IMG/VR virus record: IMGVR_UViG_3300047586_000137
Span: 1-52,077 of that record
Reading direction: 5' to 3' (one strand)
Source: a virus
Length of the DNA stretch: 52,077 nucleotides
Below, piece by piece: positions 8,665 through 52,077 of this stretch (position 1 is the stretch's first letter; the number at the start of each line of letters is the position of its first letter). The notes under the pieces are model-generated. The model saw only the letters and a program-made list of their open reading frames with translations. It was not told the DNA's origin and made no database searches. Made by a program: the position numbers and the translations under genes.

Positions 8665-8994
8665 ATGACCATCAACAAAGACACAGCGGCTACCATCGTC
8701 GGCTGGGTCCTTGGAGCCTCATTCTGGGCTACTGTGGACCCGGCCAAGCTGCTCACCGGGGATCGGATCGAAATCATGAAACTGCTCACAGGTGTTCTCA
8801 TGGCCGTGCTCGGCCATATCACGAATCACGAAACAAAGATGATCCCCGGAGGACTTGGTGTATTAGGTTTCTCAGAGCTCAAGCGGAATCCTGATGAAAT
8901 AGCCGAGGCTTTGAAATCCGCAATCGAAGCCGGTCATCCCGTCGTCGGCGCTATTCGCAACGCCGCCGCTCAATCAGATCAGCCCGCGAAGTGA
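8665..8994 (+). CDS. Possible holin-like membrane protein
   Basis: 109 residues. Two hydrophobic segments, about 9-25 (ATIVGWVLGASFWATV) and 38-54 (IMKLLTGVLMAVLGHIT), are separated by a short charged turn and followed by a polar, charged tail. That is a class-II-holin-like layout, but sequence alone does not prove function. Its stop overlaps the GTG start option of the following gene (8991-8994). Confidence 0.55.
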   Translation: MTINKDTAATIVGWVLGASFWATVDPAKLLTGDRIEIMKLLTGVLMAVLGHITNHETKMIPGGLGVLGFSELKRNPDEIAEALKSAIEAGHPVVGAIRNAAAQSDQPAK

Positions 8995-26000: not shown

Positions 26001-26819
26001 ATGCAACCCGCCGATCCTGAAACCGACGCGATGCCCAGGATGGATATCCCGCCGCCGCTTTTCTACCTTTCTGAACCCTGCTCCGAACTTATGGCAGCTC
26101 TGGCAGCAGCCGCCGCTGATCTGAAGAACCCAAAGAAGGATTCCGAGGCGAAGATCGACCTGAAGGCTGGGGGGGGGTATTCCTATCGCTACGCCGACCT
26201 GGCGACGACCCTAGATGAAATCCGGCCAGCCATTGCAAAGCATGGACTGGCGCTCATCCAATTGCCCTTCGTGAACCACGACGGTCCGAGCGTCCTGACG
26301 ATCATTTCGCACAAATCGGGGCAGCGCATCATGGCGCGTCTGGATTTGCCCGTGAGTTTCCAGGGATCGGGCCGGGACGCCGCGAAGGATCTTGGTTCCG
26401 CGATCACCTACTTGCGGCGCTATGCCGTCACTTCGGCCTTCCCAATTGCGTCAGATGAGGATTCCGACGCCAGCAAAATCCAGGGCGGGGCCAAGCAGCG
26501 TCCCGCCACACCCACATCCGCTCCACGCCCGGCACCTGTCAACGCTCCAGCAGCGCCCACACGACCCTTGCCCGCGATGCCGGCAAAGCAGGCATGGTTG
26601 GGGCAATTCGAATTCATCCGCAAGGCGAATATCGAACGGGAACGCCTCGGTGCCGCAATGTTCAACGAGGTGCTTGGTGCGCATGGCTGGACGAATCTTG
26701 AAGAAATCCCAGATAGCCCGAAGGCACGCAAGGTCTATGACGAGTTGATGAACCGGGCGGTCAGGGCCTTTTTCGCCACCGATGAGGATCTACCGCCCGA
26801 ACTGCGAGAGGTCAAATGA
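26001..26819 (+). CDS. erf: ERF-family single-strand annealing protein
   Basis: 272 residues. The ERF signatures are clear: YSYRYADLATTLDEIRPAIA (60-79), GSAITYLRRYAVTSAF (132-147) and the acidic SDEDSD that follows. A Pro/Ala-rich linker (170-195) separates it from a helical C-terminal domain. ERF proteins anneal complementary single strands and promote recombination and circularisation in temperate phages. AAGGG lies upstream, and the gene overlaps the next by four bases. The neighbouring RusA-like resolvase supports the role. Confidence 0.92.
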   Translation: MQPADPETDAMPRMDIPPPLFYLSEPCSELMAALAAAAADLKNPKKDSEAKIDLKAGGGYSYRYADLATTLDEIRPAIAKHGLALIQLPFVNHDGPSVLTIISHKSGQRIMARLDLPVSFQGSGRDAAKDLGSAITYLRRYAVTSAFPIASDEDSDASKIQGGAKQRPATPTSAPRPAPVNAPAAPTRPLPAMPAKQAWLGQFEFIRKANIERERLGAAMFNEVLGAHGWTNLEEIPDSPKARKVYDELMNRAVRAFFATDEDLPPELREVK

Positions 26820-27757
26820 GCAAGCAGATCATTTTCGAATCCGCCCACGCCGCCGCGCTGGAACTCCGGCCGGCAGTTGGGGGCTTGGCTGTTTACCTGA
26901 AGTTCATCGCCAAAATGAGCCGCGGTGCGGCCCGATCGATGGACGCCGAGTACGCCGTCTTCGGCACTGACAGCTTGCCGAAGCCAGGTTGGACCAAGAT
27001 GGACTCGGACTTCATCGCTCGCAATGTCGGCCTGACGTTCGAGGTCAAATCGATCGGTAAGAGCCCCAAGGCCTTCCACCTGGAATTGAACTGTCCACTG
27101 GTGGACAAGTTTGTCTTCGTGCGCATCGGCGGCAAAAAGAAGGGCAAGGGCACGTACGTGGCCTGCAAGGCCCGCGCGCTGGTCGATGGCCGCTACCAGG
27201 ACCTGGTGGAATTCCTGTTGGCCGCTGGTGCCGCAGACGGCGTCCTGACGCTGAAGCCGCGCGAAGAGCAGCAACCGCTGCAGGCAGTGCTAGAGCACGC
27301 GGACGGCACGGCGAAGTCGAACGACGAGATTTTCGGCCTCCCCAAGCAAGACGGTCAGTTTGACGAAATGGGCAAGTTGGAAAGTTCGCCCTCAAATGAG
27401 GCCGAAAAACCGGAAGAGGCCGATCCTTCGGAGATCCGCATTGCCTACGACGAGGAATTGAAGAATCCGAACTGGTACGCCCGGGTGCGCGTGGTGTTGC
27501 TGGAGGGTGGCTATCTGGCGTCCTGGTGGGTACGCCTCGGGCCGGCGAAGAAACCACTCCTGAGCGAAAGCGGCGAAACGCACAATTTCCCCACAGCGAT
27601 GGAGGCAAGCAGCGATGGCTTGGGTTGCGTCTCTCATCGCGCCCGGTTGGTACTTGCCGAACCGGCCACCGAAAGTGAGGGGAAAACGCCCTGCGCCCGC
27701 GTGGTGGCCTGGGTGAATGAGAAGCTGGCGGCGGTCGAGGTGTTGGCGAAGGCGTGA
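26816..27757 (+). CDS. Unknown protein paired with ERF
   Basis: 313 residues, start in an ATGA overlap with the ERF gene. The N-terminal half (FESAHAAALELRPAVGGLAV) is mixed alpha/beta with a basic GGKKKGKG loop. A Glu-rich linker (about 195-210) leads to a C-terminal domain with several Trp (NPNWYARVRVVLLEGGYLAS). I do not recognise it; tight coupling with ERF and RusA suggests a recombination or nuclease-accessory role. Confidence 0.6.
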   Translation: MSKQIIFESAHAAALELRPAVGGLAVYLKFIAKMSRGAARSMDAEYAVFGTDSLPKPGWTKMDSDFIARNVGLTFEVKSIGKSPKAFHLELNCPLVDKFVFVRIGGKKKGKGTYVACKARALVDGRYQDLVEFLLAAGAADGVLTLKPREEQQPLQAVLEHADGTAKSNDEIFGLPKQDGQFDEMGKLESSPSNEAEKPEEADPSEIRIAYDEELKNPNWYARVRVVLLEGGYLASWWVRLGPAKKPLLSESGETHNFPTAMEASSDGLGCVSHRARLVLAEPATESEGKTPCARVVAWVNEKLAAVEVLAKA

Positions 27758-27758
27758 G

Positions 27759-28193
27759 ATGCTCCCCGATACTCTCAGCGCGACTCGGGTAGGTTCAGGC
27801 TTCCGCCTGGTCCTGCCCGGACGTGTGCCGACGAAGGGGAATCGTCCGGTGCCCGTCCGGCCCGGTCTGGTGCTGCCCTCGAAGCAGTATCGCAAGTGGA
27901 TCAAAGACACGGAGTACGCGGCGTTGGCTCTATGGGCACGGGTGTGGGCCATGCGAATCAAACTGCCCATTGACCAGCCGCTCAGTGTGACCGCCACGAT
28001 CTACCTCCCGACGCGGGGACGCGGGGACGAGGATAACTATAAGAAAGCCATCGGTGATTGGTTGCAGAAGAACAACTTTATCAGCAATGACCGGCTTATC
28101 CATTGGCGTTCCGCCGGGATATGGCTGGACAGGCAGGAACCGCGTCTGGAGTTACTGGTCGAGCCCTACACGATGCGGCCGGGAGAACTCTGA
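27759..28193 (+). CDS. rusA: RusA-like Holliday-junction resolvase
   Basis: 144 residues from ATG 27759. The start of the core (LPGRVPTKGNRPV) and the metal-binding block RGDEDNYKKAIGDWL, followed by ISNDRLI, fit RusA: Asp90, Asp92, Asp100 and Asp111 align with the family's conserved acidic residues. RusA cuts Holliday junctions made during phage recombination and helps resolve concatemers. It sits next to the ERF annealing gene, as in many temperate phages. Confidence 0.85.
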   Translation: MLPDTLSATRVGSGFRLVLPGRVPTKGNRPVPVRPGLVLPSKQYRKWIKDTEYAALALWARVWAMRIKLPIDQPLSVTATIYLPTRGRGDEDNYKKAIGDWLQKNNFISNDRLIHWRSAGIWLDRQEPRLELLVEPYTMRPGEL

Positions 28194-28194
28194 A

Positions 28195-28404
28195 ATGACC
28201 ATCGGACAGAAGGCAGCGCGGAAACTCCGCAAACTGGCCGATCTGATCGACCCCAGAATCGGTCCATCTGAGGTTATGACAATGAGAATCGAAGTCGATT
28301 CGTGCCAGGCTGAGGATACAATCCGCAGGCTTTCCAGACTTGCGGCAGAACTAAGTCAATACAAGGTGATCGGGAAGGCAGAGCGAGATGCAGAATCTGG
28401 CTGA
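28195..28404 (+). CDS. Small hypothetical helical protein
   Basis: 69 residues from ATG 28195, two bases after the previous stop. Basic N-terminal helix (GQKAARKLRKLADLIDP), then DTIRRLSRLAAELSQYKVIG. No family recognised. It overlaps the following HTH gene by 17 bases. Confidence 0.6.
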   Translation: MTIGQKAARKLRKLADLIDPRIGPSEVMTMRIEVDSCQAEDTIRRLSRLAAELSQYKVIGKAERDAESG

Positions 28405-28702
28405 AGTTCTGAGCAAATGGCGTTTCATTTCACGCCTTTCGGTGCGCGACGCCGCCGCACGGGTGGGACTGGACGCAGCAACCTACAGCCGGCTGGAGCG
28501 CGGGATCGAAGTCAGCGCAAGCACGCTGCGTACGGTGCTGTTCTGGCTGCTCAGATCGGAGGCCGCTACTGCGAATGTGGAGGTGCCTATGAGCCGGTCC
28601 GGTCAAAGCCCGGACGCCGGTGACGGCGAGGCTACAACAAACGAAAGTCGGGGATTCCCGCAAACAAGCATGCAGCCGGGGTCTGGGGACAGGCCCCGGT
28701 AG
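28388..28702 (+). CDS. XRE-type HTH regulator
   Basis: 104 residues. Residues 14-50 form a Cro/CI-type helix-turn-helix (SVRDAAARVGLDAATYSRLE, then RGIEVSASTLRTVL). The C-terminal half is polar and without structure hints; there is no peptidase or oligomerisation domain as in CI. Probably an early-gene regulator. Confidence 0.7.
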   Translation: MQNLAEVLSKWRFISRLSVRDAAARVGLDAATYSRLERGIEVSASTLRTVLFWLLRSEAATANVEVPMSRSGQSPDAGDGEATTNESRGFPQTSMQPGSGDRPR

Positions 28703-28715
28703 AAGGGACCTGGCG

Positions 28716-28928
28716 ATGTCTGAGTATACTTTGGCGGTGACGGTGAAGTGCAGCGAGCGGGAGTGCGGGGAATGCCGCTTCGCAAATGGGGCCTTTGCCA
28801 ATAGATGGTGCATTCTGCATCATACGGATGATGATTTAAGCACATCGCTTGAGATGATCTTCAGCCGCCCCCAGCGCTGCGCCGCTTGCCTTAGGGCCGA
28901 AAGGAAAGTCAATGAAGCTCGTAGTTGA
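28716..28928 (+). CDS. Small Cys-rich protein A
   Basis: 70 residues from ATG 28716, AAGGGA upstream. Cysteines in CSERECGECRF, WCILHH and RCAACLRAE suggest one or two zinc sites. It resembles the next gene (same spacing of CxxC, a lone Cys and a terminal RCxxCL(R/K)AE), so the two are probably paralogues. It overlaps the next start by 17 bases. Confidence 0.6.
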   Translation: MSEYTLAVTVKCSERECGECRFANGAFANRWCILHHTDDDLSTSLEMIFSRPQRCAACLRAERKVNEARS

Positions 28929-29127
28929 GATTCCGGAGGTTGTATCGGGGTCGTACGGATGTAAGAAGTGCTCCTTCCATTCCTTAGGAAGGTGCAATCT
29001 GTTTTGGGATAAAATTAGCGGTATTGCGCTGAAAACTAAACGCGGGAAAGATCAACGCTGTCCCGAGTGCCTGAAAGCGGAAATAAAAGGATCAGGCGAT
29101 GACCGAGCGCCCGGCTTTGGACATTAA
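28912..29127 (+). CDS. Small Cys-rich protein B
   Basis: 71 residues, GGAAAG upstream. CKKCSFHSLGRC followed by RCPECLKAEIKG parallels the preceding protein's layout. Both probably bind zinc. Lower GC than the head genes. It overlaps the following gene by 29 bases. Confidence 0.6.
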   Translation: MKLVVEIPEVVSGSYGCKKCSFHSLGRCNLFWDKISGIALKTKRGKDQRCPECLKAEIKGSGDDRAPGFGH

Positions 29128-29746
29128 AGAACTGCGGCGGCTGCACACTGGGATAAAGGGAATCCGCGAGTGGAATTTTTCTGGAATCAACGAGCACTAT
29201 TCCTCAATTGATTTTCTTCTGCGACACACCCCCGAGATCCTCGCCGTGCTGGAAGAGAATGGGCGGCTGCAGAAACTTAATCATCAGTGGAACCGGGAAG
29301 CCGCGGCCATCGGTGGGCTTTGCGGATCTGAGTTCGTTGATGATCCAAAGAATGTCTTTGCGCACGTCCGAGAGATGCAGGAAGCACGGGGTAGGTTCGG
29401 GAAAGAAGCGGCCCGCTTACGAACCGAACTTGCAGTGAAAGAAGCCGAAGCCGCCAAACTCCGACAAGCGCTAACCGGCCGCACGATTTCCTGCGCGGCG
29501 TGCGAGGAGATGGCGGCGCGGGTGAGGGAACTGGAGAAGGACAAGGAACGGCTGGAGGGCTTGGAGAAACTGCTCCGACGTGGCGACTTGCAACTGCTTC
29601 AGGACTCGGGCGATTCGGAAAATTTCCGGGGAGAAACATTTACCGTTATAGATGAATCGGCCCACGAATGGGAGCACCCAACTTTACGTGAGTCAATAGA
29701 TGCCGCCACCGACGCAGCGCTGGAGGAGAGCAGCAATGGCGACTAA
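29099..29746 (+). CDS. Coiled-coil hypothetical protein
   Basis: 215 residues. Residues 85-165 are strongly charged and heptad-like (RFGKEAARLRTELAVKEAEA; AARVRELEKDKERLEGLEKL), with a CAAC pair in the middle. The end (ATDAALEESSNGD) is a repeated tail that recurs in the next protein. Function unknown. Confidence 0.6.
   Translation: MTERPALDIKELRRLHTGIKGIREWNFSGINEHYSSIDFLLRHTPEILAVLEENGRLQKLNHQWNREAAAIGGLCGSEFVDDPKNVFAHVREMQEARGRFGKEAARLRTELAVKEAEAAKLRQALTGRTISCAACEEMAARVRELEKDKERLEGLEKLLRRGDLQLLQDSGDSENFRGETFTVIDESAHEWEHPTLRESIDAATDAALEESSNGD
29700..29730 (+). repeat. Gene-end repeat, family 1, copy 1
   Basis: 31 bases, 29 of them identical to 29845-29875. The repeat codes the C-terminal ATDxALEES tail and ends in GGAGGAGAG, the ribosome site of the following gene. 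Confidence 0.9.
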
Positions 29747-29885
29747 CGAAGACCTGCGCACACGTTGGGAAGATGTCATTATCTGGGAATCGTTCTGGGA
29801 AGAGCTGGACGAACTCCTGAATAAGACATTCGAGCAAGGGAGAAATGCCGCCACCGATACAGCGCTGGAGGAGAGCCATGACTAA
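29736..29885 (+). CDS. 49-residue acidic protein
   Basis: Starts at ATG 29736 after GGAGGAGAG. WEDVIIWESFWEELDELLNK is an aromatic and acidic helix; the C-terminus ATDTALEESHD repeats that of the previous protein. It could be a short anti-host or DNA-mimic-like protein, but this is only a charge-based guess. Confidence 0.55.
   Translation: MATNEDLRTRWEDVIIWESFWEELDELLNKTFEQGRNAATDTALEESHD
29845..29875 (+). repeat. Gene-end repeat, family 1, copy 2
   Basis: Copy of 29700-29730 (29 of 31 bases identical), again at the end of one gene and supplying the ribosome site of the next. Confidence 0.9.
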
Positions 29886-30441
29886 GCAGGAACGTGAAGC
29901 ACAGATTCTCTCATTTGCCAGCGGAAACGTCGCCCTGCATACAGGGTGGCCCGTTGAGGCGCAGAAGGCGCTGTGCGCGAGCGAAGCGGCGCTGATGAAA
30001 GCGACTGCTGAGGGGAATGCGCTGGCGGCGGCGCTGGACTGGTTCTGGAACGATCTTACCATCGGCGTAGAGAAGCAGGGCGATAACCCTTGGTATCTGT
30101 CACTGCCCCGGTCACTAGGCTATGAGGCTTACCAGAAAACTACAGCCTTGCGTGATACTGCACGCGCCATCCTCATCGAGCACGACGCCGAGAAAGATAA
30201 GCGCATTGACGACCTGAAAGACGAAAACAAACGCTTGCGCGAAGGTTTTGACGAAGAGGGTTGCAGCCTTGCCGAGCGGTGTTGCGGAGCGATCAAGACC
30301 ATGCAGCAATCCGAACTCGACCGGCTGAGGAAGCTGTGCGGAGAGGGACCCACCATAATCGGCGAGTTGCCAGCGTGCAGGTGCCGAGAATGTGAGTACG
30401 TGCGCCGTCTTCGTGCAGCCGGCGAAGGGAGAAGCGAATGA
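29878..30441 (+). CDS. Hypothetical helical protein with Cys-rich end
   Basis: 187 residues from ATG 29878. Mostly helical and charged; residues 105-125 are coiled-coil-like (EKDKRIDDLKDENKRLREGF). The C-terminus has CRCRECEYVRRLRAAGEG. Four-base overlap with the next gene. Function unknown. Confidence 0.55.
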   Translation: MTKQEREAQILSFASGNVALHTGWPVEAQKALCASEAALMKATAEGNALAAALDWFWNDLTIGVEKQGDNPWYLSLPRSLGYEAYQKTTALRDTARAILIEHDAEKDKRIDDLKDENKRLREGFDEEGCSLAERCCGAIKTMQQSELDRLRKLCGEGPTIIGELPACRCRECEYVRRLRAAGEGRSE

Positions 30442-30662
30442 GCAATATCTACGATGATCGCGCCTATCCGATGAGTCCGCGTTCTAGTGAGCCTGCGCCC
30501 GAGTGCCCGAACTGCAAACTGCTGCGACAGGCGCTGGGGCCGTTTGGGAAAGCGTGGCGAGACTGGCGTGTTCTGCCTATCTTTAGCGGAAGCAGCCCGC
30601 AGAATCGCGTAACCCGCGAGGATTTTCAGCGTGCCGAGAAAGCACTGAAGGCCACGCGATGA
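30438..30662 (+). CDS. Small hypothetical protein
   Basis: 74 residues, start in an ATGA overlap. One CPNC pair, then a basic, Trp-containing helix (FGKAWRDWRVLPIF). Unknown function. Confidence 0.5.
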   Translation: MSNIYDDRAYPMSPRSSEPAPECPNCKLLRQALGPFGKAWRDWRVLPIFSGSSPQNRVTREDFQRAEKALKATR

Positions 30663-30675
30663 GCAAGGAGAAACT

Positions 30676-31224
30676 ATGATCGAAGCTCTGTTGTTTGCTT
30701 TCCTGCTGGCGCAGGCGCCGGCTACTGCGCCCTGCGATCGCCTCAAGGATCTGGAGCGCATTGAGGCATTCCTGAAGGCTGAGATGGCCGCTGCCGACTG
30801 CCCGAGCCGCGGCTTGGCGCTCTATCGGGCAGAGGTGCACGACGCGCTGGAGGCGGCAAGGAAGGGCTGCCGGGAGCCGGTAGCATCGCCCTGTGAGCGT
30901 GCTAGTGTCCCTGTTCTTTGGTACGGTTTCACGGTAGCAGGCTCACCCTGCGCCGCCATGGATGCTTACTTCGGCTGGCCTCCGGCGTTTCGGACAGTAG
31001 ACGAGTACGGAAAATGGGCTGCTCTGAATAATGCTTGTTACGAAGAGCAAAAAGCGGCAAAGAAGACCGCGAACCACTGCGCCCGCGCCGACGAACTAGC
31101 CTACGAGCTCCTAGACGACAACACGGCGCTGCTTACGGGCGGCGGGATGCCAGCCCAGGAGCGGGCGAAGGTTGAGGCGGAATTGGGGCGGGCAAGTGCG
31201 GCCTGCAAGGAAAGTGGGAAATGA
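30676..31224 (+). CDS. Hypothetical protein with signal-like N-terminus
   Basis: 182 residues. The N-terminus (MIEALLFAFLLAQAPATA) could be a signal peptide. The body contains nine cysteines in a mostly helical context, which would suit an exported, disulfide-bonded protein. The C-terminal tail from 31147 is repeated at 32368. The stop overlaps the next ATG. Confidence 0.6.
   Translation: MIEALLFAFLLAQAPATAPCDRLKDLERIEAFLKAEMAAADCPSRGLALYRAEVHDALEAARKGCREPVASPCERASVPVLWYGFTVAGSPCAAMDAYFGWPPAFRTVDEYGKWAALNNACYEEQKAAKKTANHCARADELAYELLDDNTALLTGGGMPAQERAKVEAELGRASAACKESGK
31147..31176 (+). repeat. Gene-end repeat, family 2, copy 1
   Basis: 30 bases with 29 identical to 32368-32397, both opening at an ATG and coding MPA(Q/K)ERAKVE. 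Weaker similarity continues for about 45 more bases. Confidence 0.9.
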
Positions 31225-31571
31225 AAAAGCTGAAAGACATCTCAGTGTCGGTTAGAATCCCGATTGACTACAAAGTAGGTGGTACGAGGAGATTAAAGGA
31301 CGGGAAGTGGGTCTCGCTCTCAGAAGATGGCGAGTTTAATAATGCTTATGAAGAGGCGAGGTCATGGATCGGCGATAACTTGTTACGCACTCCTGCTAGG
31401 CAGGCCAAAATCGAGACTACGGGTTCCTTCGTATGCGAGCACTGTGGTTCAGGGTGGACGGAGGACAGCCACGAGTATAACGGCGGGTGCTGCGACGAAG
31501 ACGAGAAAAACAATCCCGAACTGAAGCAAGCGAGCAAGGAATGCCTGGGGGCCTTCGATGCCAACCGATAA
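31221..31571 (+). CDS. Small zinc-finger-like protein
   Basis: 116 residues. Beta-rich N-terminus, then CEHCGSGW and GGCCDEDEKN, a possible four-Cys zinc site (residues about 73-94). The tail LKQASKECLGA belongs to the repeated ASKEC family. It overlaps both neighbours. Confidence 0.6.
   Translation: MKKLKDISVSVRIPIDYKVGGTRRLKDGKWVSLSEDGEFNNAYEEARSWIGDNLLRTPARQAKIETTGSFVCEHCGSGWTEDSHEYNGGCCDEDEKNNPELKQASKECLGAFDANR
31530..31544 (+). repeat. Gene-end repeat, family 3 (ASKEC), copy 1
   Basis: GCGAGCAAGGAATGC near the end of a small gene; identical at 31723-31737 and one mismatch at 31940-31954. It codes ASKEC or AGKEC and contains AAGGA close to the next start. Confidence 0.8.
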
Positions 31572-31767
31572 ACAGGCGAATACCCAAATAACGATCACTG
31601 GACCCGATGGGTTGAAGGTAGAAACGACGGTTGCCGGTCTCAAGTGGGCTGCGGAGTACTTCCGAAAGCATCCCAACGAGATTGGGTCTCTTGCAGATAG
31701 AATTCGCAAGGCCGAAGAGATGGCGAGCAAGGAATGCGGGGAGGCCGCTGATGCGAATCCACATTAA
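31558..31767 (+). CDS. Small hypothetical protein
   Basis: 69 residues from ATG 31558, overlapping the previous gene by 14 bases. TQITITGPDGLKVETTVAGL is a beta hairpin-like start; the rest is helical. It ends with EEMASKECGEAADANPH, sharing the tail repeat. Unknown function. Confidence 0.55.
   Translation: MPTDKQANTQITITGPDGLKVETTVAGLKWAAEYFRKHPNEIGSLADRIRKAEEMASKECGEAADANPH
31723..31737 (+). repeat. Gene-end repeat, family 3 (ASKEC), copy 2
   Basis: Identical 15 bases to 31530-31544, located 14 bases before the next gene's ATG (31751). Confidence 0.8.
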
Positions 31768-31969
31768 GCATTATGACGGGCCCAGTTCTGACTTGCCCTA
31801 CCAGATAATGAGCCGTTGGGTCCATGACGACAAGAACCAAATCGTCATAGAGGCCTACTTTGAGTTTGCACAACACGCCGGGGAGCATGCTTTCCAGATG
31901 CTGAAGCAGGCCGAATTGGCATCTCGGCCGGATTCTGATGCGGGCAAGGAATGCGGGGGTGAACCGTAA
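31751..31969 (+). CDS. Small hypothetical protein
   Basis: 72 residues from ATG 31751 with GGGGAGG upstream. IHIKHYDGPSSDLPYQIM, then EAYFEFAQHAGEHAFQML; ends DSDAGKECGGEP, a variant of the repeated tail. Unknown function. Confidence 0.55.
   Translation: MRIHIKHYDGPSSDLPYQIMSRWVHDDKNQIVIEAYFEFAQHAGEHAFQMLKQAELASRPDSDAGKECGGEP
31940..31954 (+). repeat. Gene-end repeat, family 3 (ASKEC), copy 3
   Basis: GCGGGCAAGGAATGC: one mismatch to the copies at 31530 and 31723, again just before a gene junction. Confidence 0.75.
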
Positions 31970-32203
31970 ATGCCAAGTTGCAAGACAAATGATCCAGCAA
32001 GCATCTCTGGCAGTTTGGACGCGATAGGAAGCGCTACTGAACGGTTGCGAGAATATATTCGATTGGCAGCGCTTCAGATTGACAGCCTCATAATGACCAA
32101 TAAGCACAATAATAAAGAGTTGCTTGATGCCCTAGAAGAAGTGACGCGCTTGAGATGTGCGATGAAAAGAAGAGGAGAAGTAGATGCCTGCGCCGAGAAG
32201 TGA
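31970..32203 (+). CDS. Small helical hypothetical protein
   Basis: 77 residues, starting immediately after the previous stop. Helical with heptad spacing (ATERLREYIRLAALQIDSLI; NKELLDALEEVTRLRCAMKR). Possibly a dimer. Low GC. Confidence 0.55.
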   Translation: MPSCKTNDPASISGSLDAIGSATERLREYIRLAALQIDSLIMTNKHNNKELLDALEEVTRLRCAMKRRGEVDACAEK

Positions 32204-32396
32204 AAGTTTTGATTATAAGCGATTTCTTGCGGTTTGGCACAAGCTGCCCAAGCGTATTAAGGAGCGGATCAGATTGAAGGCCGAATGGGAACATATGTGC
32301 TTGACTGCCGTCATGCGCGATTGGTGGCCCGAACTGTGGAAGAAGGTGCTTAAACCAGAGGCTCCCGATGCCAGCCAAGGAGCGGGCGAAGGTTGA
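32184..32396 (+). CDS. Small basic hypothetical protein
   Basis: 70 residues, overlapping the previous gene by 20 bases, GGAG upstream. Basic and Trp-rich (VWHKLPKRIKERIRLKAEWE; DWWPELWKKVLK). It ends in APDASQGAGEG, whose DNA contains the next copy of repeat family 2. Possibly nucleic-acid binding. Confidence 0.55.
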   Translation: MPAPRSESFDYKRFLAVWHKLPKRIKERIRLKAEWEHMCLTAVMRDWWPELWKKVLKPEAPDASQGAGEG

Positions 32397-32397
32397 G
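32368..32397 (+). repeat. Gene-end repeat, family 2, copy 2
   Basis: 29 of 30 bases identical to 31147-31176. Here the sequence is read from its own ATG as a separate mini-gene rather than as the tail of a larger one. Confidence 0.9.
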
Positions 32398-32460
32398 CGT
32401 GGGCTTCGGGAAGCGAGTAGGACGTGTAAGGGCGGGAAGGTGAAAGACGATGGCAAGTAA
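32368..32460 (+). CDS. 30-residue mini-gene derived from a repeated gene tail
   Basis: Encodes MPAKERAKVERGLREASRTC plus a Lys/Gly-rich end. It is a free-standing copy of the C-terminal tail of the protein at 30676-31224. It overlaps genes on both sides. It may be a remnant rather than an expressed gene. Confidence 0.4.
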   Translation: MPAKERAKVERGLREASRTCKGGKVKDDGK

Positions 32461-32800
32461 AACACTTTTAGAGAAATTACTGGAGCGGCGCGCTAAGCGT
32501 CTGCCCAATGAGACCATTTCCCAAGATGAGATTGAACAGGGACAGATTTTTGTTGCTTGGGTGGAGGGGATTATTGATTCTTCGGAAGTCTGTGCCGCCC
32601 TGGACATTAAATCAACGGGCCAAATATGTCAGAAAGCGGGGACCATGCTCCGGAATCTCTGCCGCGGACGCTACATCACAATCACGTGGAACCAAGAAGA
32701 ATCAATTGGCAAAGGGCCGACGAAGGCGGAGGCGGAGTTCAAGGAAGCGAGCGAGCAATGCTTGAAACAAGCCGCGCAGGAATGCGAGGAGGGGAAGTAG
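32450..32800 (+). CDS. Small hypothetical protein
   Basis: 116 residues, GGGAAGG upstream. SSEVCAALDIKSTGQICQKA could be a helix-turn-helix, followed by a basic strand (RGRYITITW). The C-terminus (EFKEASEQCLKQAAQECEEG) is an extended form of the repeated tail. Confidence 0.55.
   Translation: MASKTLLEKLLERRAKRLPNETISQDEIEQGQIFVAWVEGIIDSSEVCAALDIKSTGQICQKAGTMLRNLCRGRYITITWNQEESIGKGPTKAEAEFKEASEQCLKQAAQECEEGK
32784..32799 (+). repeat. Junction repeat joining families 3 and 4
   Basis: 16 bases identical to 33258-33273 and placed directly after AGGAATGC, the family-3 motif. It therefore looks like a recombinant of two junction types. Confidence 0.75.
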
Positions 32801-33043
32801 ATGACGATCTTCCTGATAATGGTTGAGCGCACCGGGGATAGATATCCCGATTCCTATTGGACGTCGGAGGGCTCTGCAAATAGGCGGCTCATCTGGTTGC
32901 GTAAGACATGGGAAGCTACCGGTACTGCTGCCAGCACAACCAGGGCTGGCTTCAGAGGATTTCTGGCTGAGGCTAACCTGGAAAACGCAGAACTTCATAG
33001 CATGCCAGGGCGTCCCAAGAAGGCGGCCCCCGATGCCAGCTAG
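32801..33043 (+). CDS. Small hypothetical protein
   Basis: 80 residues starting right after the previous stop. Aromatic and basic (GDRYPDSYWTSEGSANRRLI), ending PGRPKKAAPDAS; the DNA for APDAS matches that in 32364-32375. Unknown function. Confidence 0.5.
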   Translation: MTIFLIMVERTGDRYPDSYWTSEGSANRRLIWLRKTWEATGTAASTTRAGFRGFLAEANLENAELHSMPGRPKKAAPDAS

Positions 33044-33061
33044 CGCAGCCGGAGGTTTCTG

Positions 33062-33274
33062 ATGGCCGCTAACTCAAAGACAAACTACGACCACGCACTG
33101 CACATCCTGGAGACGCTAGGGTTCTATGGAGAGCAAGCGGAGAGCCAAGCGTATGCTATATCAACATACTTAGAAATTTACGTGGTGGGTCCACGGGTTG
33201 CGGAATCAGAGAAAGGTAAGGCTGGCGCCATCCGCGAGTTCCCGCCGTCTCCCGGCCGCGAGGAGGGGAAGTAA
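33062..33274 (+). CDS. Small hypothetical protein
   Basis: 70 residues, GGAGG upstream. TNYDHALHILETLGFYGEQA, then a short strand. It ends PPSPGREEGK, the family-4 tail. Its stop overlaps the next ATG (TAATG). Confidence 0.5.
   Translation: MAANSKTNYDHALHILETLGFYGEQAESQAYAISTYLEIYVVGPRVAESEKGKAGAIREFPPSPGREEGK
33251..33265 (+). repeat. Gene-end repeat, family 4 (PGREE), copy 1
   Basis: CCCGGCCGCGAGGAG, identical at 33514-33528 and 33861-33875. It codes PGREE and carries GAGGAG, the ribosome site for the following gene. Confidence 0.9.
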
Positions 33275-33537
33275 TGGCAGCGCCTACGCTCGGCAGTAAT
33301 TGGCAGACTACTCTCCGGCTGTTAGAAAACGGTTGGGATTCCTACAACGGCAAGCCAATCACAGCAGCAGCCATTGAAACAGTTGAACGTTTCGCCGTTG
33401 TCCCATGCTCATCTGGAGGCTTGCAGTTGGAAGTGCACCGAAGGCATCTGGGTATAGAGATTGAGATTGGGCCGGATGGCAGAATCATGGGAGCGCTGTT
33501 TGAGGTCCAGCCACCCGGCCGCGAGGAGAAGAAGTGA
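33274..33537 (+). CDS. Conserved-looking small protein (WDSYNG motif)
   Basis: 87 residues. ENGWDSYNGKPITAAAIET, then SSGGLQLEVHRRHLGIEIEI and a terminal beta hairpin. I recall this WD-Y-G-PI and GGLQLE-EIEI pattern from phage and plasmid proteins of unknown function. It ends in the family-4 tail (PPGREEKK) and overlaps the next gene. Confidence 0.55.
   Translation: MAAPTLGSNWQTTLRLLENGWDSYNGKPITAAAIETVERFAVVPCSSGGLQLEVHRRHLGIEIEIGPDGRIMGALFEVQPPGREEKK
33514..33528 (+). repeat. Gene-end repeat, family 4 (PGREE), copy 2
   Basis: Identical 15 bases to 33251-33265, six bases before the next ATG (33534). Confidence 0.9.
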
Positions 33538-33887
33538 CACCAATTAAGCCAAAGATTATCTGTCTCTGTGGCTCAACTCGTTTTATCGAGACCTTCGCTG
33601 TTGAGACCTGGGAACTTGAGAGAGAAGGATTCATTGTCCTGGGATGTACACTACTTCCTTATTGGTACTGTCAAGTGCCCGACCATTTCGGCGAGGCGAC
33701 AGGCACAAAAGAGCAGTGTGATGAACTTCATTTGAGAAAAATCGACCTGGCCGACGAAGTGCTTGTGTTGAACATCCATGGATATATTGGGCACTCGACC
33801 AGGCGCGAGATTGACTATGCCATCGCCCACGGAAAGCCGGTGAGGTATCTGGAGGCGTCTCCCGGCCGCGAGGAGCCCGCGCCATGA
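33534..33887 (+). CDS. Nucleoside 2-deoxyribosyltransferase-like protein
   Basis: 117 residues. ICLCGSTRFIETF (9-21), HLRKIDLADEVLVLNIHGYI (66-85) and HSTRREIDYAIAHGKPVRYL fit the Rossmann-like deoxyribosyltransferase fold. Glu92 in STRREIDYA occupies the family's catalytic-glutamate position. Such enzymes exchange or remove nucleobases from deoxynucleosides. In a phage this could recycle nucleotides or act on modified or signalling nucleotides. It ends in the family-4 tail. Confidence 0.7.
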   Translation: MTPIKPKIICLCGSTRFIETFAVETWELEREGFIVLGCTLLPYWYCQVPDHFGEATGTKEQCDELHLRKIDLADEVLVLNIHGYIGHSTRREIDYAIAHGKPVRYLEASPGREEPAP

Positions 33888-33889
33888 CC
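33861..33889 (+). repeat. Gene-end repeat, family 4, copy 3, with extended junction
   Basis: CCCGGCCGCGAGGAG (33861-33875), continued by a junction of which 20 bases (33870-33889, GAGGAGCCCGCGCCATGACC) recur at 34182-34201, including the start codon of the following gene. Confidence 0.9.
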
Positions 33890-34183
33890 TCGAAGATTGA
33901 GGGGCAAGACATGAGAGAAAAGCTCAGAGAGCTTAGAGTGGTCTGCGATGAAGCCCTAGAGTCACTTTATCAACGCAGGTACGGCATTGGGGGGGGCGTT
34001 AATTGGGGCGATCTCACCTGCGTTGAGGCTCGGCATATCGTCACAGATTCGGAGGAAGATGACGAGTTCTACGAGGTTTTAGTGGAAGAGGTTGCGCCGG
34101 AAGCTCAGGCATTCCAGACGGCGCTAGTAGTCGAGCTTGAACGACGCGGATGGATGAATGTGCATGTGCAGACTGAATGGTGA
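33884..34183 (+). CDS. Small acidic hypothetical protein
   Basis: 99 residues, start in the repeated junction (ATGA overlap). Acidic, helical (LRELRVVCDEALESLYQRRY; DSEEDDEFYEVLVEEVAPEA). No family recognised. Confidence 0.55.
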   Translation: MTSKIEGQDMREKLRELRVVCDEALESLYQRRYGIGGGVNWGDLTCVEARHIVTDSEEDDEFYEVLVEEVAPEAQAFQTALVVELERRGWMNVHVQTEW

Positions 34184-34278
34184 GGAGCCCGCGCCATGAC
34201 CCGCGCCGAGAGGGAACGATGAAGCCGGAGTAGATCCGGCAACTGGAAACGATCAAGTTGGATTAAGAAAGGGAAACC
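34182..34278 (+). pseudogene. Junction repeat followed by broken mini-frames
   Basis: The 20-base junction (34182-34201) gives an ATG at 34196 that reads only eight codons (MTRAERER) before TGA. The ATG overlapping it reads four more codons to TAG. The rest to 34278 is open in no useful frame, ending in AAGAAAGGGAAACC, the ribosome site of the next gene. It looks like the start of a gene whose body was lost. Confidence 0.5.
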
Positions 34279-34458
34279 GTGAAGAAAAAGAGTGTATTGC
34301 CCAAGCGGATTTTCATCACCCTGCAAGACCCTGGCCCAGACCAGTTTCTTATCGCCCATGAAGACTCAAGGGGGTTGGAGGATGGGATCATCGTCGGAAT
34401 CTACGAATTGGTCGAAATAAAGAAGCAGCGAGTCACAGAAGAATTGGTCAAGCTTTAA
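34279..34458 (+). CDS. 59-residue conserved-looking phage protein
   Basis: GTG start with AAAGGG upstream. LPKRIFITLQDPGPDQFLIA, then EDGIIVGIYELVEIKKQRVT: a short all-beta protein of a kind common in phages (predicted K-R-I-F-I-T start, G-x-Y-x-L-V-E-x-K end). Function unknown. I judge it real from the ribosome site and pattern. Confidence 0.6.
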   Translation: MKKKSVLPKRIFITLQDPGPDQFLIAHEDSRGLEDGIIVGIYELVEIKKQRVTEELVKL

Positions 34459-34467
34459 CGAGGCGCC

Positions 34468-34617
34468 ATGACCCGCGTCGGCCAGGAGAACGGACCCGAA
34501 GAGGATGAAGGCCGTTGCCCTTGCTGGGAACAATCGAAGGGCATCAAGGGCGAGATTGAGATTGCGGTCCTGTTGGGAATTCCAGTGCAATACGTCAGCT
34601 ATACGGAGGGCGCATGA
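34468..34617 (+). CDS. 49-residue hypothetical protein
   Basis: ATG at 34468 in GCGCCATGACC, a partial copy of the junction repeat. MTRVGQENGPEEDEGRCPCW, then helical. The stop overlaps ATG 34614. Its opening MTR is shared with the broken frame at 34196. Confidence 0.5.
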   Translation: MTRVGQENGPEEDEGRCPCWEQSKGIKGEIEIAVLLGIPVQYVSYTEGA

Positions 34618-34665
34618 CCCAGCCGCTCCAACTCGGGCCTAGCTTCGCGGCTTGCAGCGCGGCAA

Positions 34666-34929
34666 ATGCGCCCGCAGATCGCGTGCGCCAAACTGTACGC
34701 CGCACTTCGAGCAGGGCCGCAACCGCTTCGTGTATTGCCGGCACGCGGCTGCCAGAGACTCGGCGTCCGGGCGCTGTGGGAACGGATGCGCTGGTCGTTC
34801 GCGGTCGACTACCAGGCTGGCGAATACAAGCTGAACGATCATTTCCCGAGCCGTTACGCGCGGCTGATCGCGGAACGGGAACCGGATCTGGCGAGGATGT
34901 TTGAAGTCAGGGAGCTGCGCGCGGAATGA
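34666..34929 (+). CDS. Conserved-looking phage protein (LWERMRW motif)
   Basis: 87 residues from ATG 34666. RLGVRALWERMRWSFAVDYQ and LNDHFPSRYARLIAEREPDL resemble a small phage protein family I recall but cannot name (RG..RxG-x-x-x-LWE-x-x-RW and YARLI-x-x-EP-x-L). The stop overlaps the initiator gene's ATG (34926). The start is uncertain: ATG 34614, which overlaps the preceding stop, lies in another frame, so a short N-terminal part may have been separated by a frameshift. Confidence 0.6.
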   Translation: MRPQIACAKLYAALRAGPQPLRVLPARGCQRLGVRALWERMRWSFAVDYQAGEYKLNDHFPSRYARLIAEREPDLARMFEVRELRAE

Positions 34930-35975
34930 GCACATGGAGATGCCCAGATTGCAGTCTTATCAATGCCGAAACTTGGGCATATTGCCCGGCCTGTTCGGAG
35001 CCGCGGCCCATCGAGAAAACGGAAAACCTGACAACTGGGTACATCCGGCTCTATCGCAGCGTCCAGGACAATCCAATCTGGCAGCATCCCGACTATCTAA
35101 GAATCTGGCTGTATTTGTTGCTCAACGCCAGTTGGAAGGATCGCCTTTTGCTTGATGGAACGCCCGTTCAGAGAGGTTCACTGCTGACCGGTCGGATGAA
35201 GCTCGCACGCGAAACGGCGACCGGTGAACAAGTCATACGTAATTGTTTGGCAAAACTCGAAGCAACCAGGATGATAACCACGCAACCAACCAAGCAGGGA
35301 ACGCTCATAAGTATCATAAACTACAACATATACCAGTCGGGCGACGGCATGGAAGAACCAGGGGAGCAACCAGCAGAAGAACCAACAGGCTCAAAAGATC
35401 AACTTAAACCGCTTAACCAGCAACCAACCGACAACCAGCCGACAACCACCAGCCAACCAACCAACGAAACAACCAACGCGCAAAATAGAATAAATACAGT
35501 AGATACAATAAGTTCGGGCGGTCTCTTGGATGATGCGCAACCAACAACACAACCAACGAACCAACCATCGATTATAACAGATTTTCCACAGCAAACAACC
35601 ACAAGTAAAGAAACAATAAACAAGAAACAAGAAGAGAGAGAGTGTGTGGGTGTTTGTGGGTTCGTAACGCGCGCGCTTCCAATTTCGCCGAATCTACCAC
35701 CGCCAGAGGACCTCGAATCCAGACTCATCAAGATTGCCGAAGATGCACCAAACCAGCAGGACTACCAGAAGGGCGTGGACCTGGCGGCGCAGACGGTGAT
35801 TTCGGCCAGCGATCCGATCCGTGCGCTCGAAACCATGGAGCGCACGATCCCCGGCTGGTGGCTCGCCATGCTCGAGGGCCGCGCTCGGTCAAAATGCCTC
35901 CGGTATGTGATCCAGGACGGCGATTGGATGCGCGACCCGCCGGCGCCGAAGCGCAGCATCATGGACGATCTCTGA
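34926..35975 (+). CDS. Replication initiator/organiser with RanBP2-type zinc finger
   Basis: 349 residues, start in an ATGA overlap. Residues 4-23 match the RanBP2-type finger exactly: W4, C6, C9, N13, C20, C23 (WRCPDCSLINAETWAYCPAC). Residues 38-130 resemble the winged-helix domain of phage replisome organisers (GYIRLYRSVQDNPIWQHPDY; RGSLLTGRMKLARETATGEQ). A 110-residue Gln/Thr/Pro/Asn-rich linker, coded by CAACCAAC repeats, leads to a helical C-terminal domain (260-349) that may bind a host helicase loader. No helicase or polymerase is encoded, so it probably recruits the host's. Confidence 0.75.
   Translation: MSTWRCPDCSLINAETWAYCPACSEPRPIEKTENLTTGYIRLYRSVQDNPIWQHPDYLRIWLYLLLNASWKDRLLLDGTPVQRGSLLTGRMKLARETATGEQVIRNCLAKLEATRMITTQPTKQGTLISIINYNIYQSGDGMEEPGEQPAEEPTGSKDQLKPLNQQPTDNQPTTTSQPTNETTNAQNRINTVDTISSGGLLDDAQPTTQPTNQPSIITDFPQQTTTSKETINKKQEERECVGVCGFVTRALPISPNLPPPEDLESRLIKIAEDAPNQQDYQKGVDLAAQTVISASDPIRALETMERTIPGWWLAMLEGRARSKCLRYVIQDGDWMRDPPAPKRSIMDDL
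35280..35650 (+). other. Candidate replication origin within the initiator gene
   Basis: A markedly A-rich stretch with about ten copies of CAACCAAC or close variants (e.g. around 35282, 35421, 35452, 35470, 35537, 35551, 35558), followed by an AT-rich run from 35573 and a purine-rich run (AAACAAGAAGAGAGAGAG). In lambda the origin lies inside gene O with iterons and an adjacent AT-rich region, and the layout here is similar. Confidence 0.4.
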
Positions 35976-37232: not shown

Positions 37233-37769
37233 ATGCCAGCCGTACCAAAGGATCTAATATCCATCCCGGGCCTCGCCCGCGAGTGGAATTGCACGCGCCA
37301 GAATGCTTGGGCAAGCCTGAAACGCTGGGCGGTGAAAAGCTACGGCGGCCTCGTGAGCCGGGCGCAGGCTGAATCGGCGAAGGCTCGATTATCTGACCCG
37401 AAACAGGCCGAGAAGGCTGCGAAGCAATGGAAGAAATCGGGATCGGCGCCAGTTCCCGCGGAGCCTCCCGCAGCCGATGGCCAAGACCAGCAACTGACGC
37501 GATCCGAGGCCGAGCGGCAGCGGGCTTGGATTCAAATTGAGCGCGAGCGTATCAGTCTGGAGAAAGAAAAAAAGGCGCTGATCCCCGCCGCCGAGGTGGA
37601 ATCCGAATGGGCCTTAACCTGCACGATGATCCGCGATGCGATGCTTTCATTGCCGACGAAACTCTGCGGGCGCCTGGCGGCGATGACAGATGAGCCGGAG
37701 ATCACGAGATATCTGAGAACTGAGATCAGATCGGAACTGGTTAAACTCTCAAGGCAATTGGATGGGTAG
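37233..37769 (+). CDS. Terminase small subunit (Nu1-like)
   Basis: 178 residues. The N-terminal helix-turn-helix (ISIPGLAREWNCTRQNAWAS) would bind cos DNA. A charged coiled region (RQRAWIQIERERISLEKEKK) leads to a C-terminal helix (LRTEIRSELVKLSRQLDG) that should contact the large subunit, as in lambda Nu1. It overlaps the large-subunit gene by eight bases. Family call from layout, position and motifs. Confidence 0.8.
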   Translation: MPAVPKDLISIPGLAREWNCTRQNAWASLKRWAVKSYGGLVSRAQAESAKARLSDPKQAEKAAKQWKKSGSAPVPAEPPAADGQDQQLTRSEAERQRAWIQIERERISLEKEKKALIPAAEVESEWALTCTMIRDAMLSLPTKLCGRLAAMTDEPEITRYLRTEIRSELVKLSRQLDG

Positions 37770-39681
37770 GTTGCGGCGCGTGGCGTCGCGGGCGCTGACG
37801 CCGCCGCGGGAAATCACGCCGGCCGAATGGGTTGAAGAGTACCTCCGGCTGAGTCCGGAGAATTCATCGCGGCCCGGCCGGGTAACGTTGGACCCATTTC
37901 AGCGCGAGCCGCTGGAGTGCTTGGGACCCTTGCAGCCCTGCCGTCGCATAGTCCTATTGTGCGGTTCGCAGTTGATGAAAACCTTCATCATCCAGGCGAC
38001 CGTAGCATATGCGATTGACGTAGAACAGGGGCCGATCATCATTGGCGAACCGAGGGACAAGGACGCGAAGGCCTTTGCGATTGACCGGCTGGACCCGATG
38101 CTGCGCGACACGCCGCAACTTGTCGGCAAGGTTGTAGCGAAAAAGAGCCGCGAGGCTGGAAATACTCAGGAGTTCAAGAAGTTCGTCGGTGGGTCGATCA
38201 CGATTACAGGTGCGCAGAGCCCCGAGAATTTCGCGATACGGGCGAGCCGCTGGTTGTTCCTAGATGAAGTGGACCGCTATCCGCCTTCAGCCGGCAAGGA
38301 AGGCAATCCGATTGAGCTCGCCCGCCAGCGCCAGACGACATACGATAACCGGAAAGAGTTGATCTGCTCGACGCCCACGATCCAGGGCCAGAGCATGATC
38401 GAGCGAGAGTACGCGGAATCGGATCAGCGCGAATGGTTCCTCCCATGTCCTGACTGTCGCCACATGCAAACGCTGCGTTGGGGCAGCGACGGGCAGCCCG
38501 GCGGCGTGCGGTGGGGTGAGCACGGCGAAGTGATGATCGCCCCGTCCGAGGCTCACTACGAATGCGCGGAATGCCGTGCCTGGATCCCGCATTTCAAGAA
38601 AGCGTGGATGAATGCGCGGGGCGAATGGCGCCCACAGAATCCGGCCGGCAAGTTTCCGGGGTTTCGCGCGAATCAACTCATCAGCCCGCGCAAGAGTTGG
38701 GGTGAAATAGCCGAGCAATTTCTGAGAGCCAAGGACAGTCGCGAGGACCTGATCGTATTCGTGAATACCGTGCTTGCCGAATGTTGGCAGGAAAAAGGCG
38801 ATGCCCCGGATTGGGAGAAGCTGCAGAGCCGCGCCGAAGACTATCCGCTGGGGATCGTCCCAGCCGGCGCCGCGATGCTCACGGCAGGCGTCGACGTCCA
38901 GAAGGATTGGGTTGAAGGCTGGGTAAGGGCTTGGGGCGCGCGCCGCCAGTCTTGGGTTGTCGACCACATCTACATTTTGGGACGCTTTACGGATCTGGCG
39001 ACGCGCACCCAACTCGACGTGGCTCTTGATCGGAGTTATCCGCATGCCTTCGGCGCGGAGATGCAAATCGCACAGACGGCGATCGATTCGGGCTATTACA
39101 CGACGGATGTCTATCAGTGGGTCCGGACCAAGGCCGCGGCGTGGGTAATGGCCGTCAAGGGCATAACGAGCGGCGCGACGCTACTCGGGCAACCTTCCGC
39201 CGCGGAGATAACGGTCGGCGGCAGAAAACTGAAGGCGGGGATCAAGCTTTGGCCGGTCAACGTGAACATCGCCAAAGCTGAACTCTATGGCTGGCTGCGC
39301 TCGGATCGGCCGGAGGAAGGCGCAGAGTATCCCTCTGGCTGGGTTCATTTCTCACGCGAGTTGAACGACGAGTTCTATAAACAACTCACGGCCGAGCAGT
39401 TTGTCACGCGCATCGTAAAGGGTTACAAGCGCGGGGAATGGGTCAAGACGCGAGATCGCAATGAAGCGCTGGATAGTTTCGGAAGCTACGCCCGAGCGGC
39501 TGCCGAACGGCTCGGTATCTCGCGCATGACGGATCGCCATTGGGAACGTCTGGTGGCGCAACTTGAGGCAGCCGGAAAGGCCTTGACCGAAGACCAGACG
39601 CAGAGGGGAGCCTCGCAGGCTCAGCAGCCTGCGCAACTTGCGCAACCGCAGCACCGCAAGCTGCAGATAAGGATGCACTGA
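37762..39681 (+). CDS. Terminase large subunit (GpA family)
   Basis: 639 residues, close to lambda gpA's length. Walker-A-type loop GSQLMKT (68-74), Walker B WLFLDEVDRY with Asp168 and Glu169, and coupling-type motif CSTPT (202-206). CPDC (229-232) and CAEC (268-271) form the zinc ribbon seen in many GpA proteins. The nuclease domain starts at AGVDVQKDW with Asp378. It pumps DNA into the prohead and cuts at cos. GpA-type enzymes imply cos packaging rather than headful. Confidence 0.93.
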   Translation: MGRLRRVASRALTPPREITPAEWVEEYLRLSPENSSRPGRVTLDPFQREPLECLGPLQPCRRIVLLCGSQLMKTFIIQATVAYAIDVEQGPIIIGEPRDKDAKAFAIDRLDPMLRDTPQLVGKVVAKKSREAGNTQEFKKFVGGSITITGAQSPENFAIRASRWLFLDEVDRYPPSAGKEGNPIELARQRQTTYDNRKELICSTPTIQGQSMIEREYAESDQREWFLPCPDCRHMQTLRWGSDGQPGGVRWGEHGEVMIAPSEAHYECAECRAWIPHFKKAWMNARGEWRPQNPAGKFPGFRANQLISPRKSWGEIAEQFLRAKDSREDLIVFVNTVLAECWQEKGDAPDWEKLQSRAEDYPLGIVPAGAAMLTAGVDVQKDWVEGWVRAWGARRQSWVVDHIYILGRFTDLATRTQLDVALDRSYPHAFGAEMQIAQTAIDSGYYTTDVYQWVRTKAAAWVMAVKGITSGATLLGQPSAAEITVGGRKLKAGIKLWPVNVNIAKAELYGWLRSDRPEEGAEYPSGWVHFSRELNDEFYKQLTAEQFVTRIVKGYKRGEWVKTRDRNEALDSFGSYARAAAERLGISRMTDRHWERLVAQLEAAGKALTEDQTQRGASQAQQPAQLAQPQHRKLQIRMH

Positions 39682-51478: not shown

Positions 51479-52077
51479 TGCCATCGCTCTATCCTCAACT
51501 CAACACCGCCGGGATGATGGTTCAACGCCCATTCGGCCAGACCTTCTCTCATCTTTCTTCGATCAGTGAACTCGCGGCTGGCGCGCGGCAATCCTACTAT
51601 TGGCGGAATCTGCCACTGATGACCTGGGACCTGACTTATCCGGCGCTCGCGGCTGCTGAATATACGACGGTCCACGCCTTCCACCAGGTGCAGCAGGGGC
51701 GCTTCGGAGAGTTCATATTCCTAGACCCGGGCGGCAACTTGGTCCCAGCGTCGGAGAACTTCGCCGATTCGTCATGGACGAAATCCTACGTCACGATAGG
51801 CGCCGCGACCACCGATCCGTTCGGTGGGAACAACGCGACCGCCTGCACTGGGACTTCCGGTTCAAATAGCTGTCTCGTTGCCGCAACTTTACCTTCCGGC
51901 CTGTCTGCCGGCCTGATGATTTGTCTGAGTGCCTGGGTCCGGCCACATGTGGCGATGACCTTCTATCTGATCCAGTGGAACGGTGTCTCTTCATCAATCG
52001 TCGCGAGTGCGTACATACCCGCCAACCAATGGGTGCGTCTTTCCGGGTCGCTTCTCACGGTGAATACGAATGTGATC
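51478..52077 (+). CDS. DUF2460-like tail protein with carbohydrate-binding-like insert (5' part; continues at base 2)
   Basis: Starts at ATG 51478 (ATGA overlap). On the circle it ends at 343, giving 271 residues. FGQTFSHLSSISELAAGARQ and FHQVQQGRFGEFIFLDPGGN resemble the preceding DUF2460-like protein. After NLVPASENFADSSWT a binding-module-like segment begins (FGGNNATACTG; LMICLSAWVRPHVAMTFY). Bases from 51951 onward are the duplicated contig end. Confidence 0.8.
   Translation, partial: MPSLYPQLNTAGMMVQRPFGQTFSHLSSISELAAGARQSYYWRNLPLMTWDLTYPALAAAEYTTVHAFHQVQQGRFGEFIFLDPGGNLVPASENFADSSWTKSYVTIGAATTDPFGGNNATACTGTSGSNSCLVAATLPSGLSAGLMICLSAWVRPHVAMTFYLIQWNGVSSSIVASAYIPANQWVRLSGSLLTVNTNVI
51951..52077. 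repeat. Terminal direct repeat (contig self-overlap), right copy
   Basis: 127 bases identical to 1-127; see the left copy. Removing one copy gives the unique circle of 51,950 bp. Confidence 0.95.

Follow-up and report, generated by a model that had tools for sequence, protein, structure and literature searches.

Repeats at gene junctions as probable scars of gene exchange in the early accessory module of an uncultured phage

Introduction

How phages can swap single small genes without breaking the genes on either side is a long-standing question. Conserved boundary sequences and linked genes were reportedly described by Kroger and Hobom in 1982 for the nin region of lambda and P22. A boundary-sequence hypothesis is cited in work on the cluster I mycobacteriophages, in which the neighbouring genes gp67 and gp68 of Island3 have common 3' ends (Pope et al. 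2011, PMC3029335). Another kind of short repeat, the start-associated sequence of cluster K mycobacteriophages, lies at the start codons of non-structural genes and follows a single consensus of 13 bp; each genome carries 11-19 copies, placed just upstream of starts (PMC3203893).

Most mosaic boundaries carry no sequence trace. The phage genome described here holds many such traces in one block of small genes, and this module offers a natural test bed for asking if short stretches of identity at ribosome sites direct the exchange of genes.

Genome setting of the module

The window, which is the whole stretch of DNA analysed, is the 52,077 bp IMG/VR virus record IMGVR_UViG_3300047586_000137 from an uncultured phage. 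Its terminal 127 bases are identical (1-127 and 51951-52077), which points to a closed genome of ~51,950 bp and would fit a complete genome, either circular or terminally redundant. About 22 small rightward genes at 28.4-34.9 kb form the module, which lies 3' of genes for Erf-like and RusA-like proteins.

26001-26819, + strand: Erf-like ssDNA annealing protein (phrog_2324, E=1.2e-32)
27717-28193, + strand: RusA-like Holliday junction resolvase (phrog_34, E=1.9e-11)
34926-35975, + strand: DnaD-like helicase loader adjoining the module (phrog_2514, E=1.6e-28)
37762-39681: large terminase

Gene starts in the module are predictions, and searches of Pfam, PHROGs and phage records left most of its proteins unmatched. 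Gene 34666-34929 (87 aa) has relatives 42-47% identical in the mycobacteriophages TM4, Sparky, Quesadilla and Imvubu, and one 39% identical in Tunturiibacter phage Tunturi_4.

Repeated sequences at gene junctions

A preliminary description of this DNA had one sequence ending three neighbouring small genes, where it both encoded a common PGREE tail and served as ribosome site for whichever gene came next, and this is borne out. There are exactly three copies of CCCGGCCGCGAGGAG, at 33251, 33514 and 33861, all on the + strand; they share one reading frame at the 3' ends of genes, and each forms the ribosome site for the gene that follows. Allowing up to two mismatches finds the same three places only, against 0.47 expected, and no shuffle reached three. 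The tails read ...PPSPGREEGK (gene 33062-33274), ...VQPPGREEKK (33274-33537) and ...EASPGREEPAP (33534-33887), each followed by a stop codon, and PGREE is thus not terminal, being followed by two or three more residues (GK, KK, PAP).

33062-33274, + strand: small gene, 70 aa, no family match
33246-33265, + strand: linker E copy 1, CGTCTCCCGGCCGCGAGGAG, at the 3' end of gene 33062-33274, with the ribosome site of 33274-33537
33274-33537, + strand: small gene, 87 aa, no family match, between linker E copies 1 and 2
33514-33528, + strand: linker E copy 2, CCCGGCCGCGAGGAG, at the 3' end of gene 33274-33537, with the ribosome site of 33534-33887
33534-33887, + strand: small gene, 117 aa, between linker E copies 2 and 3, related to proteins of other phages, one annotated as a deoxyribosyltransferase
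33856-33889, + strand: linker E copy 3 joined at GAGGAG to linker F (GAGGAGCCCGCGCCATGACC), a chimeric junction of genes 33534-33887 and 33884-34183
33884-34183, + strand: small gene, 99 aa, no family match
34182-34201, + strand: linker F copy 2, GAGGAGCCCGCGCCATGACC, 3' of gene 33884-34183
34463-34477, + strand: linker G, GCGCCATGACCCGCG, start of ORF 34468-34617; other copy at 34191-34205
34468-34617, + strand: ORF, 49 aa, its C-terminal part weakly matching positions 146-173 of the 249-position nucleoside 2-deoxyribosyltransferase family phrog_355

Copies 1 and 3 of linker E are identical over 20 bp (33246/33856), and the right arm of copy 1, GGGAAGTA, is also present at 32784. The preliminary description further placed a 20-base extension with its start codon at 34182. 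The 20-mer GAGGAGCCCGCGCCATGACC is indeed found at 33870 and 34182, but the second junction lacks the left part, CCCGGCCGC, so that the right arm alone is in common, and its ATG opens only an 8-codon ORF (MTRAERER and a stop, 34196-34222). The chain of linkers continues with the 34191/34463 pair, whose common core is GCGCCATGACC. ORF 34468-34617 is possibly a truncated gene joined to a linker start, and both it and the 8-codon ORF look like remnants of deleted genes.

Beyond CCCGGCCGCGAGGAG, at least six more junction repeats lie at 29.7-34.5 kb (29700/29845, 31146/32367, 31530/31723/31940, 32364/33029, 32784/33258 and 34191/34463), and the set comprises at least five different families across a dozen junctions.

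29700-29731, + strand: linker A copy 1, encoding the tail AATDAALEES at the end of gene 29099-29746, with a GGAGGAG ribosome site
29845-29876, + strand: linker A copy 2, encoding the tail AATDTALEES at the end of gene 29736-29885; identity to copy 1, 94%
31530-31564, + strand: linker B copy 1, encoding the tail ASKEC, with the ribosome site and ATG of gene 31558-31767
31723-31757, + strand: linker B copy 2, encoding the tail ASKECGEA, with the ribosome site and ATG of gene 31751-31969; identity to copy 1, 80% over 35 bp
31940-31958, + strand: linker B copy 3 (tail AGKECGG), end of gene 31751-31969
32364-32375, + strand: CCCGATGCCAGC, coding for PDAS near the end of gene 32184-32396; a second copy (33029-33040) ends gene 32801-33043
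32367-32460, + strand: relic, its first 31 bp 97% identical to 31146-31176, followed by a diverged continuation
32784-32799, + strand: linker D copy 1, GCGAGGAGGGGAAGTA, at the 3' end of gene 32450-32800; repeated at 33258-33273

The relic reads MPAKERAKVERGLREASRTCKGGK, which resembles the C-terminus of gene 30676-31224, in a frame that differs from that of gene 32184-32396. Judged by this reading, it appears to be a diverged copy of the last ~25 codons of gene 30676-31224, lying 3' of gene 32184-32396.

Genes that end in common PGREE, KECG or AATDxALEES tails have bodies without convincing likeness, the tails alone matching. For gene 33534-33887, the closest homologue, in contig L091, is 53-56% identical and ends ...VMYMEPRN where the window protein reads ...VRYLEASPGREEPAP; more distant homologues have their own, varied ends. 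Because the L091 homologue stops at the same point without a tail, the PGREE tail of gene 33534-33887 looks like an addition.

Likeness at the level of DNA

Same-strand repeats of at least 12 bp were counted in the module (28388-34950) and compared with 200 first-order Markov sequences: 14 were observed, against a shuffled mean of 1.6 and a maximum of 6. In 11 of the 14, both copies fall in junction zones, defined as -45 to +30 of a stop codon and covering a quarter of the module. Rotated zones gave a mean of 1.25 and reached 11 in 22 of 2000 trials, a result of only moderate strength (about 1%) since the repeats are clumped. The late region (1-25500) has no junction repeats by the same measure. 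Among 216 compared sequences of at least 6.5 kb, the window included, it ranks 6th for clustered 14-mers and stands near the top for clustered 14-mers located at predicted junctions.

Ten repeats of at least 15 bp were observed, whereas within-gene codon shuffling leaves a mean of 0.03, and resampling of synonymous codons, with the proteins kept, a mean of 0.18 and a maximum of 1. Since synonymous resampling removes the repeats, the likeness is that of copied DNA and not of a selected peptide tag. Composition, coding and peptide sequence all fail to explain it; the DNA was copied.

One-sided identity at the ribosome site

Five junctions with a GAGGAG hexamer were aligned on that hexamer, and identity was counted leftward and rightward from it. 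The junction at 33870 matches that at 33260 over 14 bp to the left and 0 to the right, and matches 34182 over 0 to the left and 14 bp to the right; between 32786 and 33260 the match covers 2 bp on the left side and 8 bp on the right. As aligned, each junction can be read as a left arm, the tail of one gene, and a right arm, the start of another, joined at the ribosome-site core. This one-sidedness fits crossovers at the ribosome site. With left and right halves matching different neighbours, presumed crossover points can be placed within a few bases, at the positions where identity between these short copies stops. Identity that stops at a core of 6-8 bp points to microhomology.

Search for relatives and for the linker elsewhere

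A nucleotide search with 29-36.9 kb gave no match in 50,697 phage records, and single-protein scans with the terminase and ERF found no relative. Terminase profile scans of viral and genome contigs returned relatives at best 37-46% identical, none of which encodes a recognisable module protein; module DNA compared with 43 viral records gave one marginal 24-base match (E = 0.006). The patterns CCCGGCCGCGAGGAGN8ATG, AGGAGCGGGCGAAGGTTGAG and GCGAGCAAGGAATGCNNGGNGG were not found in IMG/VR, where absence is weak evidence, as records very near the window's genome may be missing from the searched set. The plain 15-mer linker occurs in 112 IMG/VR stretches, with no second copy among the matches listed, as chance predicts.

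Junction repeats of other kinds occur in other contigs. Nine terminase relatives (L051, L052, L053, L055, L064, L066, L070, L087 and L262) carry 2-7 copies of a ~33 bp element upstream of the terminase (in L053, for example, at 449, 909, 1365, 1852, 2879, 3179 and 3539). The element reads ATGAACGCGCTGTTC-N5-GAAGCCAAGC, contains the inverted repeat GAACgcgctGTTC, sits in gaps between apparent minus-strand early genes and is possibly a repeated promoter, operator or start-associated element. A further terminase relative, L208, belongs to a Bryobacterales (Acidobacteria) assembly and repeats CATGACGATTCATCACTCCGGTGCGCC at 8819 and 9403, ~0.6 and 1.2 kb upstream of its terminase. The phage contig L113 (IMGVR_UViG_3300037199_000131) has many long exact junction repeats, such as 9965/10857 and 2516/2955, and in it GTTCTGGGCTTTCGGCCCGCGCATTGAGGAGGAACAACCGTGAT precedes two different genes.

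Origin of the junction repeats

The repeats are probably scars left as genes were repeatedly inserted, replaced and deleted in an early accessory-gene module. Every linker contains a gene's final codons together with a ribosome site, and in many cases the start codon of the gene that follows. Crossing over within short identities, frequently at the GAGGAG core, would fuse one gene's 3' end with another's 5' end; as both joined genes would stay unbroken, such products would survive selection, and the joined arms would be carried into new junctions. The tails PGREE, KECG and AATDxALEES would then be passengers. Recombination at short identities near gene ends, together with selection for intact neighbours, is the simplest account. 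Copies, positions, identity of DNA, one-sided chimeric junctions and the relic at a gene end are plain in the genome; from them we infer recombination as the origin, the enzymes that may be responsible and any continuing activity.

The preliminary description went further, towards cassette exchange in a built-in zone worked by ERF. Part of this agrees with the present results: junction repeats exceed chance, the DNA was copied, one tail looks added, junctions are chimeric, and ERF and RusA-like proteins are encoded nearby. A dedicated zone, in which linkers are selected as homology arms along which ERF, with RusA, swaps genes, is nevertheless unlikely. The two enzyme genes lie 5-8 kb upstream, recombination between linkers would preserve both the frame of the upstream tail and the downstream ribosome site, and on 800 bp sequences, whether identical or diverged, the ERF of phage D3 is roughly as effective a recombinase as Red (PMC3945230). 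However, efficient pairing needs a segment of at least 23-27 bp with Red-beta, a related annealing protein, and of 31-34 bp with RecA (PMC3945230), so that ERF acting on single copies of 15-20 bp would probably be inefficient. Identity also breaks at GAGGAG and is not kept across the whole site, which suits incidental microhomology. In addition, no gene was seen gained or lost between two linkers in any relative, the relatives found all being distant, and the IMG/VR matches listed held no second linker copy. We likewise give little credence to a broader model in which the ribosome-site hexamer would be the usual crossover point, tails and starts would be freely recombinable, and the module would be a self-renewing array of single-gene cassettes driven by the phage's own annealing protein.

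It is quite improbable that the junctions are alike as translation signals, that is, strong or coupled ribosome sites kept similar by selection in the manner of the 13 bp start-associated sequences at non-structural gene starts (PMC3203893). A purine-rich ribosome site does stand beside a start codon in most copies, but the matching bases either reach 9-14 bp upstream of that site, within the previous gene, or continue beyond it for 8-14 bp, and no pair among the five GAGGAG junctions matches far on both sides. There are, moreover, at least five different sequences with no single consensus, and neither a conserved fold nor an Rfam match.

Common C-terminal peptides might instead be functional tags for localisation, binding or degradation, selected as protein. 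The three PGREE copies do share one frame, and AATDxALEES and KECG tails recur in the same way, yet their codons are identical too (a chance of ~0.018 per extra PGREE copy given the same residues), synonymous resampling abolishes the repeats, and the 34182 linker and 32367 relic are repeated without coding the same tail; selection for tags is accordingly very improbable. Equally hard to credit is tandem gene duplication followed by divergence of bodies with ends left alike. The neighbours 28716-28928 and 28912-29127 encode Cys-rich small proteins with a similar stretch (RCAACLRAERK/RCPECLKAEIK; 12 residues, 67%, E=8e-4), and their likeness makes some local duplication likely, but the PGREE and KECG genes differ in length and have no convincing similarity outside their tails, and their starts differ although duplication would have copied starts as well.

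An RNA element was rejected, as six junctions have no common fold (RNA parameters) and no Rfam match was found, junction 32760-32820 alone folding better than shuffles (z = -2.5). The lack of a common fold at these six junctions also speaks against the folding attC-like sites of an integron-like array. Nor do the repeats follow one consensus across the genome as cluster K start-associated sequences do; they form several families confined to 29.7-34.5 kb.

Comparison with known systems

Insertion, replacement and deletion of genes, the preferred reading, has its closest counterpart in Island3. In both phages, neighbouring and otherwise unrelated small genes have the same C-terminal residues and the same DNA at their 3' ends, and the repeat includes the next start; in the window the likeness of the DNA exceeds what protein or translation would need. 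Island3 also encodes a RecT-like pairing protein and a RusA-like resolvase. The comparison of Island3 with Brujita was reproduced: Island3 has two copies of the common 3' end flanking gp68, and Brujita has one, made of the left side of the first Island3 copy and the right side of the second. Such repeats can thus gain or lose a gene elsewhere; for the present phage we infer exchange. By the exact-repeat count applied to the window, the Island3 right arm has eight junction repeats among 48, three of which belong to the gp67/gp68 pair. Island3 differs in that its repeat, present as a single pair, is longer (about 50-60 bp), and in that a close relative carries one copy and lacks the inserted gene. 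In the window the families are shorter, number at least five and extend over a dozen junctions, and the records searched yielded no near relative.

The nin regions of lambda and P22 are alike in being blocks of small genes beside replication genes, joined by a ribosome site and overlapping ATGA, and GCATGA recurs at many of their junctions. Exact repeats of at least 12 bp number two in lambda nin, one of them at a junction, and none in P22 nin. The consensus there is loose, while copies in the window are exact, 15-20 bp long and reach into gene tails. Cluster K repeats also stand at the starts of non-structural genes, but as one consensus, in contrast to the several unrelated families of the window, whose identity lies on one flank of the ribosome site. 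The module belongs to a known kind of phage mosaicism, that of the lambda/P22 nin boundary sequences and Island3, and illustrates it richly; its notable features are the unusual density of its repeats and the ribosome site as their pivot.
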